Source: Roseateles saccharophilus
GTDB lineage: Bacteria > Pseudomonadota > Gammaproteobacteria > Burkholderiales > Burkholderiaceae_C
DNA length: 64,000 bases
Direction of reading: 5' to 3'
Assembly: GCF_004342485.1 (NCBI RefSeq)
Contig: NZ_SMBU01000003.1
Location: 186,001 to 250,000 of the forward strand
A program made the position numbers and the translations under genes. The notes beneath the pieces were generated by a model. That model was not told the origin of the DNA. It ran no database searches and saw only the letters and a program-made list of their open reading frames with translations. Positions 10,158-61,760 of the stretch are shown piece by piece; the first letter of the stretch is position 1, and each line of letters opens with the position of its first letter.

Positions 10158-10364
10158 CGGCGGCCTCGCAAAATGAAAACGGGCCGCGATAATGCGACCC
10201 GTCGAGATGGGGGAGCCAGGTGGAACAATCGTCCAGCGCACCGTGATCGACAGTGCTCCCGACTCGACGTCCATTGTACTGCAGGCCGACCGACACAGCA
10301 ATTGCAGGCCCACAGCGCCACTGGGGGGCGACGCCAAGGATGGCCAAGCAGATGGAGTGACGCA

Positions 10365-29016: not shown

Positions 29017-29115
29017 CGCCTTCGCTAGGGGTGTTGGTGGCCAGGCGCCATCGACTGAGACAGTCCCTTTGAACCTGATTGGGGTAATCCCCGCGCAGGG
29101 AAGCAGCCGAATCGC
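29017..29115 (+). ncRNA. TPP riboswitch (THI element)
   Basis: The conserved core is complete: AGGGGTG, then CTGAGA (pyrimidine-sensing), CCCTTTGAACCTGAT, GGGTAAT and the closing CGCGCAGGGAAG. TPP riboswitches control thiamine synthesis and uptake genes. It lies 70 bp upstream of a TonB-dependent receptor start with no other gene between, so that receptor should be repressed when thiamine pyrophosphate is plentiful. No terminator hairpin is obvious between core and start, so control of translation initiation is more likely. Confidence 0.93.
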
Positions 29116-29186
29116 AGCCCCATCTTTTCGTCTCCCGGGGCCAGGCGTCTTCAGTGTTTGCCGACCTGCCATCGCTTTGCATTCCG

Positions 29187-31349: not shown

Positions 31350-31425
31350 TCCTCGATAGCTCAGTCGGTAGAGCGCCGGACTGTTAATCCGTAGGTCCCT
31401 GGTTCGAGCCCAGGTCGAGGAGCCA
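31350..31425 (+). tRNA. tRNA-Asn (GUU), first copy
   Basis: 76 bases with a perfect 7-bp acceptor stem (TCCTCGA/TCGAGGA), D-arm GCTC...GAGC, anticodon loop CTGTTAA with anticodon GTT, T-arm CCTGG-TTCGAGC-CCAGG, and encoded CCA end. Identical to the second copy. Confidence 0.97.
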
Positions 31426-31477: not shown

Positions 31478-31553
31478 TCCTCGATAGCTCAGTCGGTAGA
31501 GCGCCGGACTGTTAATCCGTAGGTCCCTGGTTCGAGCCCAGGTCGAGGAGCCA
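31478..31553 (+). tRNA. tRNA-Asn (GUU), second copy
   Basis: 76 bases identical to the first copy, 52 bp downstream, again with encoded CCA. The spacer has no promoter-like TATAAT, so both copies are probably made from one transcript that ends at the terminator at 31559. Confidence 0.97.
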
Positions 31554-55439: not shown

Positions 55440-56528
55440 ATGACTTCCGCTGCCCTTCAAGTATTTGCCGGCCCCGCCGCCAGGGCGCGCCTGGCCGAAC
55501 GCGGCCTGCGCGCCGAGGATGTCGGCCTGATTCCCGCCGCCGCCGGCGGCCCCAAGGGGCTGATCCTCAACGGCCTGGACCGCCACGTCTTCGGCGACTG
55601 GCTGCCGCAGAGCCGCCAGACCGTCCACCTCGTCGGCGCCAGCATCGGCGCCTGGCGCATGGCCACGGCCGCGCTGGCCCACCGGGACGTCGCCGCCGCC
55701 TTCGACACGATGGCCGAGGCCTATGTGACGCAGGAATACGACGTGCTGCCGGGCGAGAAGCGCCCGCGGCCCGAGGGCGTCAGCCGGCGCTTCGGCGAGA
55801 TCCTCGGCGGGATCTTCCAGGGCCGAGAGTCGGAAGTGCTGGCCCATCCGCGGCTGCGCCTGCATGTCGTCACGTCGCGCGGACGCGCCGGCCTGCTGGC
55901 GCGCGAAGGCCGGCTGCGCACGCCGCTGGGCTACCTCGGCGCCTTCGCGGCCAACGCGCTGTCGCGCCCGCTGCTGGGCCGCTTTCTGGAGCGCGTCGTC
56001 TTCTCCGACCCGCGCGACCGCCTGCCGCTGAAGCTGAACGACTTCACGAGCCGCGAGGTGCATCTGTCGCGCGCCAATCTGCGCGGCGCGCTGCTGGCGA
56101 GCTGCTCCATCCCGTTCTGGCTGCAGGCCCAGCACGACCTGCCCGGCGCGCCGCGCGGTGCCTACTGGGACGGCGGCATCACCGACTACCACCTGCATCT
56201 GGACTACCGCGCGCTGCAGGCCTCGGGCGCGCCGCTGGTGCTCTATCCCCATTTCCAGCGCCAGGTCGTGCCGGGCTGGCTGGACAAGGCGCTGAAGCAT
56301 CGCCACCGCTCGACCGCCTTCCTCGACAACGTCGTGCTGCTGTGCCCGTCGCCGGATTGGATCGGCAAGCTGCCTGGCGCCAAGCTGCCCGACCGCAACG
56401 ATTTCATGGCGCTGGACGCGGGCGAGCGCCGCCGCCGCTGGCGTGTCGGCGTGGCCGAGAGCCAGCGCCTGGCGGACGAGTTCGACGCCCTCGTGCGCCG
56501 CGAACGGATCGAAGCGCTGCCGCTCTGA
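55440..56528 (+). CDS. Patatin-like phospholipase
   Basis: 362 residues. The nucleophile Ser lies in GASIGAWRMA (GxSxG) and the catalytic Asp in AYWDGGITDYH (DG[AG]); an oxyanion Gly-rich stretch is seen as AAAGGPKGL. It probably hydrolyses phospholipids or neutral lipids in the cytoplasm or at the membrane. A TATCTT box ends 8 bp before the ATG and no Shine-Dalgarno sequence is seen. Confidence 0.88.
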   Translation: MTSAALQVFAGPAARARLAERGLRAEDVGLIPAAAGGPKGLILNGLDRHVFGDWLPQSRQTVHLVGASIGAWRMATAALAHRDVAAAFDTMAEAYVTQEYDVLPGEKRPRPEGVSRRFGEILGGIFQGRESEVLAHPRLRLHVVTSRGRAGLLAREGRLRTPLGYLGAFAANALSRPLLGRFLERVVFSDPRDRLPLKLNDFTSREVHLSRANLRGALLASCSIPFWLQAQHDLPGAPRGAYWDGGITDYHLHLDYRALQASGAPLVLYPHFQRQVVPGWLDKALKHRHRSTAFLDNVVLLCPSPDWIGKLPGAKLPDRNDFMALDAGERRRRWRVGVAESQRLADEFDALVRRERIEALPL

Positions 56529-56625
56529 GCAGCTACCGACTGTTGCAGTCACCCAGTCAACCGACAGCGGGCGACCGAACGTTACAGCGGCAGCCGTCCC
56601 CTTGCCGGACGGAGGACCTCCCCTC

Positions 56626-57180
56626 ATGAAACTCCGCCATCGCCCCCTGTTGCGCTCTGCCGCCCTCGTCACGCTGGGCAGCGCCCTGCTGGCGGGCTGT
56701 GTCGTCGCACCGGTGCACCGCGCCCCCCCGCCCGCCTACAGCCCGCCGCCGGTCGGCTATGCCGAGCCGGCGCCTGGCGGCTACTACGGCGGCAACGAGT
56801 CCGGTTACGGCGGCCGCTATGCCGATGTCCGCTATGGCACCGTGGCTGCCATCGAACCGCTCGGCAACCAGCCTCGCAGTTCCGGCGCCGGCGCCATTGC
56901 AGGCGGCCTGATCGGCGGCGTGATCGGCCACGAGATCGGCCGCGACATGGGCGGCCCGCGCGGTGACGGTGGCAAGGTGGGCGCCGTGCTCGGTGCCGTC
57001 GGCGGTGCGGTCATCGGCGACCAGATCGAGCGCGACGGCAGCCGGGGTCCGGCGGGCTACCGGGTCTGGATACGCCTGGACGGCGGTGGCGACCAGAACC
57101 TGCAGCTCGCCAACCCGGGTGATCTTCGCGTTGGCGAACGGGTGCGCCTCGCCGACGGGCAGTTGCAGCGCCTGCGCTGA
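56626..57180 (+). CDS. Glycine-zipper outer-membrane lipoprotein (SlyB/17-kDa type)
   Basis: 184 residues from ATG 56626 with a GGAGG ribosome binding site. A lipobox LLAGCV is followed by a Pro/Tyr-rich linker and the glycine-zipper 2TM domain (AGAIAGGLIGGVIGHEIGRDMGG, VGAVLGAVGGAVIGDQIE). Members stabilise the outer membrane. It lies just upstream of the thrS leader; the thrS promoter seems to overlap its last codons. Confidence 0.9.
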   Translation: MKLRHRPLLRSAALVTLGSALLAGCVVAPVHRAPPPAYSPPPVGYAEPAPGGYYGGNESGYGGRYADVRYGTVAAIEPLGNQPRSSGAGAIAGGLIGGVIGHEIGRDMGGPRGDGGKVGAVLGAVGGAVIGDQIERDGSRGPAGYRVWIRLDGGGDQNLQLANPGDLRVGERVRLADGQLQRLR

Positions 57181-57193
57181 CTGGCCCTAGAAT
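57163..57193 (+). promoter_or_regulatory. Candidate promoter of the thrS leader
   Basis: TTGCAG at 57163-57168 and TAGAAT at 57188-57193 are separated by 19 bp. The transcript would begin near 57200, about 37 bp before the leader peptide start. The -35 overlaps the end of the lipoprotein gene. The spacing is longer than ideal, so the assignment is tentative. Confidence 0.45.
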
Positions 57194-57236
57194 TGCCGCT
57201 CCCTCCCCTCACAAGAGCGAGAAAGGCACCCTGGTT

Positions 57237-57278
57237 ATGACACCGCGAACTACGACCACCACCTTCACCGGTAAATAG
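57237..57278 (+). CDS. Threonine-rich leader peptide of thrS
   Basis: A 13-codon gene encodes MTPRTTTTTFTGK and a TAG stop. Seven of 13 residues are Thr, using ACA, ACT, ACG and ACC codons, so all Thr tRNAs are probed. GAAAGG stands ten bases upstream as ribosome binding site. The next gene product is threonyl-tRNA synthetase. The arrangement equals the leader peptides of amino-acid biosynthesis operons, in which ribosome stalling at the regulatory codons lets transcription pass the terminator. Confidence 0.85.
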   Translation: MTPRTTTTTFTGK

Positions 57279-57280
57279 TC

Positions 57281-57347
57281 GGCCGCGGCACGTCACGTCT
57301 TCTCGCCTTCGGGCAATAAACAAGCGCGGCACCTGGCCGCGCTTTTT
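57281..57347 (+). promoter_or_regulatory. Transcription attenuator of thrS (antiterminator and terminator)
   Basis: The terminator is AGCGCGGC (57323-57330), a 5-base loop and GCCGCGCT (57336-57343), followed by TTTTTG and TTTT. GGCCGCG at 57281-57287, three bases after the leader stop, repeats the terminator's right arm (57335-57341), so it can pair with CGCGGC of the left arm (57325-57330) as antiterminator. The CCGCG in the second and third leader codons can pair with CGCGG at 57284-57288 as protector. Stalling at the Thr codons would free 57281-57287 to form the antiterminator. Confidence 0.8.
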
Positions 57348-57373
57348 GTTTTCTGCCCCTGAACGGAGCACCC

Positions 57374-59281
57374 ATGATTTCGATTCAACTCCCCGACGGC
57401 TCGCGCCGTGAGTACCCCGCCCCGCTGTCGGTCGGCGATGTCGCCGCCAGCATCGGCGCCGGCCTGGCGAAGGCCGCACTGGGCGGCAAGGTGGACGGCA
57501 AGGTCGTCGACCTGAGCTACGTCATCGACAAGGACGCCAGCCTCGCCATCGTCACCGACAAGGACGCCGACGGCCTGGAGCTGATCCGCCACTCGACGGC
57601 CCACCTGCTGGCCTATGCGGTCAAGTCGCTCTACCCGGAAGCTCAGGTCACCATCGGCCCGGTCATCGAGAACGGCTTCTATTACGACTTCGCCTACAAG
57701 CGCCCCTTCACGCCCGAGGACCTGGCCGCCATCGAGGCCAAGATGACCGAGCTGGCAAAGAAGGACGAGAAGGTCGTGCGCCGCGTGCTGCCGCGCGACG
57801 CGGCCGTGGCCCACTTCAAGGCCATGGGCGAGGCCTACAAGGCCGAGATCATCGAGAGCATCCCGGCCGACCAGGATGTGTCGCTGTACGCCGAAGGCGC
57901 CTTCGAGGACCTCTGCCGCGGGCCCCACGTGCCCAGCACGGGCAAGCTCAAGCACTTCAAGCTGATGAAGGTGGCCGGCGCCTACTGGCGCGGCGACCAT
58001 CGCAACGAGCAGCTGCAGCGCATCTACGGCACGGCCTGGGCCACGAAGGACGACCTGCAGAAGTACCTGACGATGCTGGAGGAAGCCGAGAAGCGCGACC
58101 ACCGCAGGCTAGGAAAGGAATTGGACCTCTTCCACATCGACGAGCACGCCCCCGGCGTCGTCTTCTGGCACCCCAAGGGCTGGACGGTCTGGCAGGAGGT
58201 GGAGCAGTACATGCGCCGCGTCTACCGCGACAACGGCTACCAGGAGGTCAAGGGCCCGCAGCTGCTCGACAAGACGCTGTGGGAAGCCACGGGCCACTGG
58301 GACAAGTACCGCGAGAACATGTTCACGACGGAGTCCGAGAAGCGCGACTACGCGCTCAAGCCGATGAACTGCCCCGGCCACATCCTGATCTTCAAGCAGG
58401 GCGTGAAGAGCTACCGCGACCTGCCGCTGCGCTTCGGCGAGTTCGGCCAGTGCCATCGCAACGAGCCGACCGGCGGCCTGCACGGCATCATGCGCGTGCG
58501 CGGCTTCACGCAGGACGACGGCCACATCTTCTGCACGGAAGACCAGATCCAGGGCGAGGTCACGGCCTTCACGGCCCTGCTGCAGAAGGTCTACAAGGAT
58601 TTCGGCTTCACGGACATCATCTACAAGCTGTCCACCCGCCCCGAGAAGCGCATCGGCAGCGAGGAGAGCTGGGACAAGGCCGAGCACGCGCTGGCCGAAG
58701 GTCTGCGCGCGTCCGGCTGCGAGTTCACCTACCTGCCGGGCGAAGGCGCCTTCTACGGCCCCAAGATCGAATACACGCTGAAGGACGCCCTCGGCCGCGA
58801 GTGGCAATGCGGCACCATCCAGGTCGACCCCAACATGCCGGAGCGGCTGGACGCGGCCTTCGTGGACGAAGACGGCGAGCACAAGCGCCCGCTGATGCTG
58901 CACCGCGCCATCGTCGGCAGCCTGGAGCGTTTCATCGGCATCCTGATCGAGCAACACGCCGGCGCCCTGCCCGTCTGGCTGGCGCCGACGCAGGTCGTCG
59001 TGGCCAATATCACCGATTCCCAGGCCGATTACGTTGCGGAAATTGTGAAATCGCTGCAAAAACAAGGGCTTAGGGCCTCAGCCGATTTGCGCAACGAGAA
59101 GATCACCTATAAAATCCGCCAGCATTCCATGCAAAAGCTGCCGTACATCCTCGTCGTAGGCGACAAGGAAAAGGCGAATGGCAGCGTTGCGGTCCGCGCC
59201 CGTGGCAACCAGGATCTGGGCGTGATGCCCCTGCAGGACTTCCTCGATCGGATCTCCGCAGACATCACCAACAAGGTCTGA
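57374..59281 (+). CDS. thrS: Threonyl-tRNA synthetase
   Basis: 635 residues. An N-terminal TGS domain (about 1-60), an editing domain with [12 protein letters not shown] (the HxxxH site), and the class II core with [10 protein letters not shown] (zinc Cys), [30 protein letters not shown] (motif 2) and a C-terminal anticodon-binding domain are present. It charges tRNA-Thr. A GGAG ribosome binding site stands seven bases before the ATG. Expression should be set by the Thr attenuator in the leader. First gene of thrS-infC-rpmI-rplT-pheST. Confidence 0.98.
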
Positions 59282-59347
59282 AACGCCACCCGGGCGCGCT
59301 TCTGTTTTTTGTGGCCCCTCGCCTTGGGCCGTTGAAAGGTCCACACC

Positions 59348-59893
59348 ATCGCTACGTTTGCCGACCGTCGTGCGATTCCGGAGCGCAAGCACCGGTTGAA
59401 CCGCGAAATCATGGCTCCCGAAGTCCGTCTGAACGGCCCCGAGAACGAACCCATCGGAATCGTCAGCATCCAGGAGGCCCTGCGAATGGCGGGCGACATG
59501 GATGTGGACCTGGTCGAGATCTCCGCCACCGCCAATCCGCCGGTCTGCCGGCTGATGGACTACGGCAAGTTCAAATACCAGGAGCAAAAGCGCGCCGCCG
59601 AAGCCAAGGCCAAGCAGAAGATCATCGAAATCAAGGAAGTCAAATTCCGCCCGGGCACGGACGAAGGCGACTACCAGATCAAGATGCGCAACCTGCGTCG
59701 CTTCATCGCCGAAGACGGCGACAAGGGCAAGGTCACGCTGCGCTACCGGGGCCGCGAGATCACCCACCAGGATATCGGCATGCGATTGCTGGAGCGGATC
59801 CGCGACGAACTGGCCGACGTGGCAGTGGTCGAGAACATGCCGAAGCTCGAAGGTCGGCAGATGATCATGGTCCTGGCGCCGAAAAAGCGCTGA
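59348..59893 (+). CDS. infC: Translation initiation factor IF-3, ATC start
   Basis: 181 residues if read from ATC at 59348; the first ATG in frame (59396) would remove 16 conserved-looking residues ([19 protein letters not shown]). IF-3 genes characteristically use rare start codons (AUU in E. coli) for autoregulation, and AAAGG lies nine bases upstream of this ATC. The body is typical: [40 protein letters not shown] and the C-domain [20 protein letters not shown]. It discriminates start codons and keeps 30S subunits free. Confidence 0.93.
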
Positions 59894-60014
59894 GACCGAA
59901 ACGAGTTCAACCGGTCGGTTTGGTCGCTGGCCGGTTCACAAGTCTCCTGAGGCCAACAAGCGTGACGGGCTCTTTCGTCACCGCCCCAGGGACACACTTA
60001 AAAGGAGCATTCAC

Positions 60015-60218
60015 ATGCCCAAGATGAAGACCAAGAGCAGCGCGAAAAAGCGTTTTCGCGTTCGTCCGGGTGGCACCGTCAAGCGCGGTCAGGCGTTCAA
60101 GCGCCACATCCTGACCAAGAAGACCACGAAGAACAAGCGTCAGCTTCGCGGCGCCGTGACCGTGCACGAGACCAACATGGGCCACATGGCTCAGATGTTG
60201 CCTTTCGCCGGCCTGTAA
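60015..60218 (+). CDS. rpmI: Ribosomal protein bL35
   Basis: 67 residues with the typical start [16 protein letters not shown] and the [21 protein letters not shown] segment. A strong AAAGGAG ribosome binding site is present. The 121-bp gap to infC contains overlapping inverted repeats (AACCGG...CCGGTT; GACCG...CGGTC) that may serve the L20-mediated control known for this operon. Confidence 0.97.
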
Positions 60219-60244
60219 TCCACCAAGACTAGAAGGAGAAACAT

Positions 60245-60601
60245 ATGCCTCGCGTCAAACGTGGTGTTACCGCTCGCGCCCGTCACAAGAAGGTCCTGGC
60301 CCTCGCCAAGGGCTTCCGCGGTCGTCGTAAGAACGTCTTCCGCATCGCCAAACAGGCGGTGATGAAGGCGGGCCAATACGCCTACCGTGACCGCCGCACC
60401 AAGAAGCGCGTGTTCCGTCAGCTGTGGATCGCCCGTATCAACGCCGCCTCGCGTGGCCTGGGCCTGTCCTACAGCAAGTTCGTGGCGGGTCTGAAGAAGG
60501 CCCAGATCGAGATCGACCGCAAGGTTCTCGCCGATCTGGCCGTCAACGACCCGGCTGGTTTTGCCAGCATCTTCGCCAAGGTGAAGGCCGCGCTCGCCTG
60601 A
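60245..60601 (+). CDS. rplT: Ribosomal protein bL20
   Basis: 118 residues ([20 protein letters not shown], then [20 protein letters not shown]). It binds 23S rRNA early in 50S assembly and in E. coli represses rpmI-rplT translation. It follows rpmI by 26 bp with an AGGAG ribosome binding site and ends just before the terminator. Confidence 0.98.
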
Positions 60602-60643
60602 TTGCGACCCGCTCCGGCTCACGTCGGAGCACGCAAACTTTCG

Positions 60644-60673
60644 GGGCCGGTCACTGCGTGACCGGCCCTTTTT
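60644..60673 (+). terminator. Intrinsic terminator between rplT and pheS
   Basis: GGGCCGGTCAC and GTGACCGGCCC form an 11-bp stem with a TGC loop, followed by TTTTTG. It lies 43 bp after rplT and 43 bp before pheS. A second hairpin (GCTCCG...CGGAGC, 60611-60630) precedes it. In E. coli pheST is controlled by a Phe-rich leader peptide; no Phe-rich short frame is visible here, so this may be a simple terminator or a leader-independent attenuator. Confidence 0.85.
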
Positions 60674-60716
60674 GTCTTCGACGCAAGGGCTGCACCCTTG
60701 TCATCCCGAATTCCGA

Positions 60717-61760
60717 ATGTCTGATCTCGACGCTCTTCTTGAAGCGGCACGCAGCGACTTTGCCGCCGCGCCCACGCCGGCCGAACTCGAAAACGCCAAG
60801 GCCCGTTTCCTCGGCAAGTCCGGCCGTGTGACCGAACTGATGAAGGGCCTGGGCGCCCTCAGCATCGAGGAAAAGAAGACCCGCGGCGCCGAGATCAACC
60901 AGCTGAAAGTCGGCATCGAAGCCGCCCTCACTGCACGCCGCGATGCGCTCGCCGCCGCCGAGCTGGAGAAACAGCTCAAGGCCGAGGCGCTGGACGTGAC
61001 GCTGCCCGGCCGCCAGCGCGGCACCGCCGGCCTGCATCCGATCACGCGCGCGATGGAGCGCATCGAGGCCATCTTCAGCTCGATGGGCTTCGACGTGGCC
61101 GACGGCCCCGAGATCGAGACCGACTGGTACAGCTTCTCGGCGCTGAACAACCCCGAGAACCACCCAGCCCGCTCCATGCAGGACACCTTCTACGTCGACA
61201 TGAAGGACGAGAACGGTGCCTGGCTGAACCTGCGCCCGCACACCAGCCCGATGCAGATTCGCTACGCGCAGGCCCATGCCAAGCGCTATGCCGGCCAGGA
61301 GCACATGCCCGAGATCCGCGTCATCGCGCCGGGCCGCACCTACCGCGTCGACAGCGACGCGACCCACTCGCCGATGTTCCACCAGGTCGAAGGCCTGTGG
61401 GTGGGCGAGAACATCTCGTTCAAGGACCTGAAGGCGGTCTACCTGAACTTCATCACCGCCTTCTTCGAGACCGACCAGCTGCAGCTGCGCTTCCGCCCCA
61501 GCTACTTCCCGTTCACCGAGCCCAGCGCCGAGATCGACATCATGTTCGAGAGCGGCCCGCTGAAGGGCCGCTGGCTGGAAGTCTCCGGCTCCGGCCAGGT
61601 GCACCCGCAGGTCATCCGCAACATGGGCCTGGACCCGGAGCGCTACATCGGCTTCGCGTTCGGCTCCGGCATCGACCGCCTGGCCATGCTGCGCTACGGC
61701 GTCAACGACCTGCGCGCCTTCTTCGACGGCGACCTCCGCTTCCTGGCTCAGTTCCGCTGA
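60717..61760 (+). CDS. pheS: Phenylalanyl-tRNA synthetase alpha subunit
   Basis: 347 residues from ATG 60717. The N-terminal coiled coil ([20 protein letters not shown]) precedes the class II catalytic core: [34 protein letters not shown] (motif region), [26 protein letters not shown] (motif 2) and [17 protein letters not shown] (motif 3). It pairs with PheT as an alpha2-beta2 enzyme. pheT starts 41 bp downstream. Confidence 0.98.

Follow-up and report, generated by a model that had tools for sequence, protein, structure and literature searches.

A probable ribosome-mediated attenuator with a threonine-rich leader peptide upstream of thrS in Roseateles saccharophilus and related Burkholderiales

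The window analysed here, a stretch of 64,000 nucleotides from R. saccharophilus, carries on its forward strand thrS (57374-59281), which encodes a threonyl-tRNA synthetase of 635 amino acids with the Pfam domains tRNA-synt_2b, HGTP_anticodon, tRNA_SAD and TGS. It is followed on the same strand by infC (59348-59893; IF-3, domains IF3_N and IF3_C), rpmI (60015-60218; L35, assigned from sequence and position) and rplT (60245-60601; L20). The start codon of infC is apparently ATC (59348-59350), a non-standard start, and the same start region was recognised by eye in relatives lying on the minus strand (for example L004, L013 and L016); infC of E. coli likewise starts at a non-standard codon, AUU. 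Between rplT and pheS, a strong terminator-like hairpin with a T tail (60643-60669) suggests that pheS starts a separate unit, and no Phe-rich leader was seen by eye between these two genes. Elsewhere in the window, Rfam matches corresponded to a DUF3800-VI RNA (10213-10265, reverse strand) and a TPP riboswitch (29017-29118, forward strand), and two tandem tRNA-Asn(GTT) genes were present on the forward strand (31350-31425 and 31478-31553). The thrS leader is immediately preceded by a tRNA gene in relatives of several families (L155, L178, L184, L277 and L107), and in many of the regions viewed this tRNA resembles tRNA-Val(GAC) by eye.

The region preceding thrS contains, in this order on the forward strand, a -10-like box, an AGAAAGG motif, a short leader frame, a pairing segment designated strand 2, a small UUCG hairpin, a terminator and thrS itself. 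The leader frame (57237-57278) encodes the peptide MTPRTTTTTFTGK, in which seven of 13 residues are Thr. This peptide had been proposed in the original prediction, and reading the frame directly from the ATG at 57237 to the TAG at 57276-57278 gave the same product. AGAAAGG (57220-57226) represents the putative ribosome-binding site of the leader and is part of a block, GAGAAAGGCA, that recurs in relatives. At the level of sequence, the thrS mRNA leader therefore holds a short predicted open reading frame provided with its own ribosome-binding site. When all ATG-started frames of 7-30 codons on both strands of the window were compared, nested starts counted (445 frames), the Thr fraction of the leader (0.54) was the highest and the runner-up reached 0.375. 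A rough count of codon usage in the window was taken from long frames, shadow frames included, and nothing in the analysis rests on it. The start of the frame lies within a near-invariant core, GGTTATGACACCGCGAAC (57233-57250), which runs from 4 nt ahead of the ATG to the second base of codon 5. Since the element is conserved upstream of thrS in relatives, a chance origin of the leader is untenable. A helix between GCGAGAA (57217-57223) and TTCTCGC (57300-57306), which could close the leader ribosome-binding site, was also considered; it was left out of the model because, judged by eye, only some members of the genus have it.

The putative leader promoter is represented by the -10-like box TAGAAT (57188-57193), which sits just outside the 57200-57373 region. 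Of 79 thrS upstream regions, 66 have TANAAT at a distance of 25-110 nt 5′ of the leader ATG (mean of 1.9 and maximum of 5 in mononucleotide shuffles), and 58 of these 66 boxes start 44-61 nt 5′ of the ATG. In the 85 nt before thrS, the same motif occurred in one of the 79 regions, compared to a shuffled mean of 2.0. A stricter sigma-70 scan of 56500-61500 gave no promoter-like site, with 0.6 expected, and no -35 element was identified for the TAGAAT box. Judged from the box counts, transcription may start upstream of the leader. At the other end of the leader, an intrinsic terminator (57322-57350) lies between the short frame and thrS. Its hairpin, AAGCGCGGC-ACCTG-GCCGCGCTT, occupies 57322-57344 and is followed by a T tail. 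The strong terminator predicted at 57323-57347 was thus confirmed, with its extent revised: the stem is 57322-57344 and the remainder corresponds to the T tail. A terminator-like hairpin was detected in 149 of 150 distinct elements from relatives and in all 20 further loci (both sets are described below). The single miss, L019, lacked a terminator by the rule used and has, by eye, a hairpin containing extra bases. The repeat of GGCCGCG that had been noticed in the leader was also found as described, with copies at 57281-57287 and 57335-57341.

Folding of the RNA from 57200 to 57373 gave an energy of -63.9 kcal/mol (z -4.5), and none of 200 shuffles was as low. Four strands take part in the predicted structures. 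Strand 1 (57238-57256; paired positions 57238-57241, 57243-57247 and 57253-57256) forms the 5′ arm of helix 1:2, and strand 2 (57278-57295; paired positions 57278-57281, 57284-57288 and 57292-57295) forms its 3′ arm. Part of strand 2, GCCGCG at 57282-57287, can also pair with strand 3 (CGCGGC, 57325-57330), which belongs to the left arm of the terminator, 3:4. In the window fold without a ribosome, 1:2 reached -21.5 and the whole structure with the terminator -40.5 kcal/mol. When strand 1 was covered and strand 4 absent, 57282-57287 paired with 57325-57330 at -14.0 kcal/mol, and with a ribosome at the stop codon the 3:4 terminator formed at -22.6 kcal/mol. Because 2:3 is weaker than 3:4 in the window, it must act kinetically, by forming first.

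To place the element among relatives, the threonyl-tRNA synthetase of the window was used as a query; it found a match in 149 of 149 genomes searched. The upstream set consisted of 142 thrS regions from 141 genomes, one of which (G121) has two thrS copies; G010, G027, G061, G066, G083, G115, G135 and G148 were left out, mostly for partial or contig-edge matches, and G135 entered later as L277. A slightly degenerate core was present in 79 of the 142 regions. In the family of the window (f1, sampled with 85 of 90 genomes), 76 of 85 thrS upstream regions carried the core within two mismatches, 70 of them exactly and six inexactly, and it was absent from the other nine. In a collection of named genomes, at least 119 stretches contained the exact 18-mer. 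Among the 80 exact cores listed, 77 sit 123-306 nt 5′ of thrS and the other three reach the contig end within 351 nt. The genera represented among those listed include Variovorax, Acidovorax, Comamonas, Rhodoferax, Roseateles, Rubrivivax, Massilia, Janthinobacterium, Duganella, Collimonas, Undibacterium, Cupriavidus, Paraburkholderia and Burkholderia. Strains of Cupriavidus necator and Variovorax paradoxus are among the carriers of the leader (L178 and L188). When one mismatch was allowed anywhere in the core, a sample of the order contained it in 46 of 399 genomes and eight of 51 family labels (f1, f3, f8, f10, f32, f35, f39 and f47), and a sample of the class in three of 274 genomes, each a member of the window's family. 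Judged from these matches, the core belongs to some, not all, families of the order. The genome of R. saccharophilus itself holds one exact copy, the leader in the window; a search with a degenerate version of the core and up to two mismatches added five sites with two mismatches each, a number not above that of the reversed control (3+3 versus 4+3).

Within the core, conservation reaches the level of single nucleotides. Codons 2, 3 and 4 were ACA, CCG and CGA in 74, 76 and 75, respectively, of the 76 f1 leaders with the core within two mismatches, compared to an average use of the commonest codon of 68% at 18 conserved thrS codons (Met included) from the same genomes. Among the 46 order-wide matches, 31 were exact, 14 differed at the first base alone (C for G) and one at the third base of CGA. 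In these comparisons the deepest-conserved part of the element is its nucleotide-invariant start, encoding MTPRT, rather than the Thr run. A pure codon sensor leaves the fixed ACA, CCG and CGA unexplained. These observations would fit a reading in which the invariant start, GTTATGACACCGCGAAC, is the sensor itself and the Thr run a later addition; the start could be a site in the RNA to which threonyl-tRNA synthetase binds, in a form of autoregulation like that at the E. coli thrS operator, or a site of pausing imposed by the nascent peptide or by the slow codon CGA. The base before GTT in the core is G or C, so that GGU or CGU, both of them Thr anticodons, precedes the start, which may be a coincidence; by eye, no conserved stem presenting GGU or CGU as an anticodon loop was found in the regions viewed. 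Part of the invariance may also be explained by the pairing of strand 1. We regard the start as sensor as rather unlikely.

The composition of the leader peptides was analysed in 150 distinct elements, obtained from 77 unnamed and 77 named sequences minus four duplicates (L031 and L091 had been dropped beforehand). Because the named elements were picked by the exact core and the unnamed ones by the degenerate core, the invariance of the core within this set is partly by construction. From codon 6 on, Thr accounted for 28.6% of the codons, compared to 1.7% and 3.3% in the other two frames, and it was the most frequent residue at codons 6, 7, 8, 9 and 11. The leader stop fell at codon 12-15 in 114 of the 150 elements. 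Codons for the cognate amino acid of the synthetase are consequently enriched at the control position across the set, an enrichment past codon 5 for which a mere binding site would have no use. Twenty further loci (L268-L287) were drawn from the 35 matches of the order sample that lie outside the window's family (f3, f10, f32, f35, f39 and f47; none from f8). In all 20, thrS lies 113-280 nt downstream of the core. In 13 of these 20 leaders from other families, the only Thr residues are the two of MTPRT, and this persistence of the core without further Thr agrees with the start being the sensor. Upstream regions devoid of the core pointed the same way: CGA-AC, read as Arg-Thr within a short frame, occurred in 11 of 61 such regions; the 30 arrangements of this pentamer averaged 2.0, with 6 as the next highest count. 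The frames concerned include MFKRTTTTRISR and MQLNRTTTTS. Runs of three or more Thr in core-less regions were discarded as evidence, since Arg and Leu runs were similarly frequent (Thr in six of 61 regions, Arg in five and Leu in four), and so was a density of at least four Thr per eight residues (Thr in five of 63 regions, Arg in seven and Ala in four). Upstream of the second thrS copy of G121 (L142), a short frame, VTTTTTTSTAT, contains six Thr in a row; this region differs from that of the first copy (L095).

Pairing was evaluated in 149 elements, the 150 without L019. The best 1:2 and 2:3 duplexes overlapped in segment 2 by at least 3 nt in 134 of the 149. Pairing of 1:2 and 2:3 was modestly better than in dinucleotide shuffles, with median z values of -1.2 and -1.1, and reached p≤0.05 in 25% and 31% of the elements, respectively; because the sequences are related to one another, these pairing counts, like those of conservation, do not represent independent events. 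Summed over the 20 further loci, the duplex energies exceeded those of mononucleotide shuffles by ∼2.5 sd for 1:2 and ∼3 sd for 2:3, and individually one locus (1:2) and three loci (2:3) reached p≤0.05. L268 and L270 have peptides similar to those on named contigs from Burkholderia and Paraburkholderia, and their 2:3 pairing was not beyond chance (p 0.65 and 0.91). The original prediction called for folding the leader in both of its states. The window gave the succession anticipated for an attenuator, with 1:2, then 2:3 before strand 4, then 3:4, and the two loci just mentioned did not reproduce the 2:3 step above chance.

Evidence for a second helix, which is enclosed by 1:2 and has the stop codon within or next to its loop, came from class B, a group of 33 sequences in which strand 2 reads GTTCGCG or nearly so and, in 21 of the 33, begins 11 nt downstream of the stop codon's first base. 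The second helix took 26 distinct forms in these 33 sequences, with a mean score of 15.0 versus 10.0 in shuffles, and 13 of the 33 reached or exceeded their own 95th percentile. The full set of 149 elements scored 10.9 versus 9.1 in shuffles, where the mean had an sd of 0.26, and 20 of these elements reached or exceeded that percentile. For covariation analysis, 26 of the 33 class-B sequences were aligned and seven (L032, L037, L044, L075, NL149, NL180 and NL187) were set aside on visual inspection as fitting poorly or being oddly spaced; because of this selection by eye, the paired percentages lean upward. In the 26-sequence alignment, 92.6% of the cells of the second helix paired, compared to 20-42% when the alignment was slid, and 14 cells had changed on both sides, compared to 5.6 in shuffles (none of 500 as high) and 2-8 when slid. 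Four pairs showed changes on both sides, a number reached by 109 of 500 shuffles. A subset of 14 sequences, mostly with a 5-nt loop, had 98.4% of its cells paired and five cells changed on both sides (two of 500 shuffles as high). The first helix showed no covariation in the class-B alignments, its 5′ side being invariant. The original prediction asked for conserved Thr-rich frames and compensatory changes in both hairpins of related Burkholderiales; the Thr frames proved conserved, the second helix of class B covaries and the first helix is invariant. The weakness of the 2:3 evidence in individual sequences would fit a constitutive leader, in which the terminator does no more than lower thrS expression and the short frame is incidental. 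Such a leader would account for neither the in-frame Thr enrichment, nor the near-invariant start, the narrow range of stop positions and the class-B covariation, and we consider it very unlikely.

All in all, these results favour a ribosome-mediated transcription attenuator controlling thrS, a reading to which we assign a probability of about 0.7. The attenuation model put forward in the original prediction is partly supported, by the parts, their conservation and the Thr enrichment; the Thr run is not the invariant element, a position held instead by the MTPRT start. According to this model, transcription would begin 5′ of the leader. When charged Thr-tRNA is scarce, the ribosome would wait at codon 2, codon 5 or the Thr run after them and cover strand 1, allowing 2:3 to pair, so that the terminator would be blocked and thrS transcribed. 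When Thr-tRNA is plentiful, the ribosome would reach the stop codon, which abuts strand 2 (the antiterminator part begins 4 nt past the stop), and hide strand 2, so that 3:4 would end transcription. Alternatively the ribosome would leave and 1:2 would form, and 3:4 would likewise end transcription. Ribosome stalling, the switch between pairings and threonine as the signal are all deduced from this arrangement. The two Thr of MTPRT might suffice without the run, because stalling at any of codons 2 to ∼9 would cover strand 1. A combined scheme is also conceivable, in which the 17-nt start GTTATGACACCGCGAAC acts together with the terminator as a recognition element, either a synthetase-binding RNA or an MTPRT/CGA pause, with threonyl-tRNA synthetase and the ribosome competing for this start in several families of Burkholderiales; we hold this scheme to be unlikely.

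The proposed attenuator shares features with several known systems. In the thrL leader of enterics (RF00506), as in the present case, an intrinsic terminator lies behind a short, Thr-rich leader peptide; it differs in that it controls thrABC and contains Ile codons too, whereas the gene here is thrS. Leader-peptide attenuation of an aminoacyl-tRNA synthetase gene, as proposed here, operates on E. coli pheST, with Phe codons. In E. coli, thrS is itself controlled in cis, by an operator through which the synthetase represses translation; unlike that operator, the leader described here has a predicted translated frame and an intrinsic terminator. T-boxes control synthetase genes via tRNA charging, thrS among them in many Firmicutes. 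A 2004 comparative study reportedly covered attenuators in proteobacteria.

At the gathering score, no Rfam family matched the leader in the window, and tRNA was the sole family matching in 10 relatives. A relaxed search on the leader strand gave Thr_leader (RF00506) 13.2 bits versus a gathering score of 55 (E 5.4) and ncS025 (RF02869, which we take to be the ncS25 RNA) 16.1 bits versus 46, far below threshold; three other sub-threshold matches were obtained. Since PMC10117139 places ncS25 between BCAL3007 and BCAL3008 and not before thrS, its match was treated as chance. No T-box was matched by Rfam in the leader, either in the strict and relaxed searches of the window or in the 10 relatives. 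Synthetase control by tRNA charging would be common to T-boxes and the present leader. T-boxes and leader peptides are described in general as exchanging with one another in PMC2965389. Given that the leader has only sub-threshold matches, and these only in the relaxed search, a T-box or another tRNA- or metabolite-binding riboswitch ahead of thrS is almost certainly not the explanation. PMC2965389 also describes His leader peptides for hisS/hisZ of bacilli, which resemble our case in placing a leader peptide ahead of a synthetase gene and differ in concerning histidine and Firmicutes. In the text of that paper the term 'thrS' is absent and threonyl-tRNA synthetase appears once, as an E. coli self-regulator. 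PMC2965389, PMC8632094, PMC4833913 and PMC4603805 yielded no relevant thrS or threonyl passage, and PMC5688073, which lists 82 short 5′UTRs of B. cenocepacia, none on tRNA synthetase or threonine. Among the matches listed from open-licence PMC literature, no earlier report of a thrS leader peptide in Burkholderiales was recognised.

An essential synthetase gene in a large order, with environmental, plant-associated and clinical genera, thus appears to be under an uncatalogued leader attenuator. If true, leader-peptide attenuation would extend to thrS, with a charging sensor distinct from the operator of E. coli and from the T-box of Firmicutes. From their position after thrS, infC, rpmI and rplT could be controlled together with it, and the attenuator could then tie threonine charging to the supply of an initiation factor and of ribosomal proteins.
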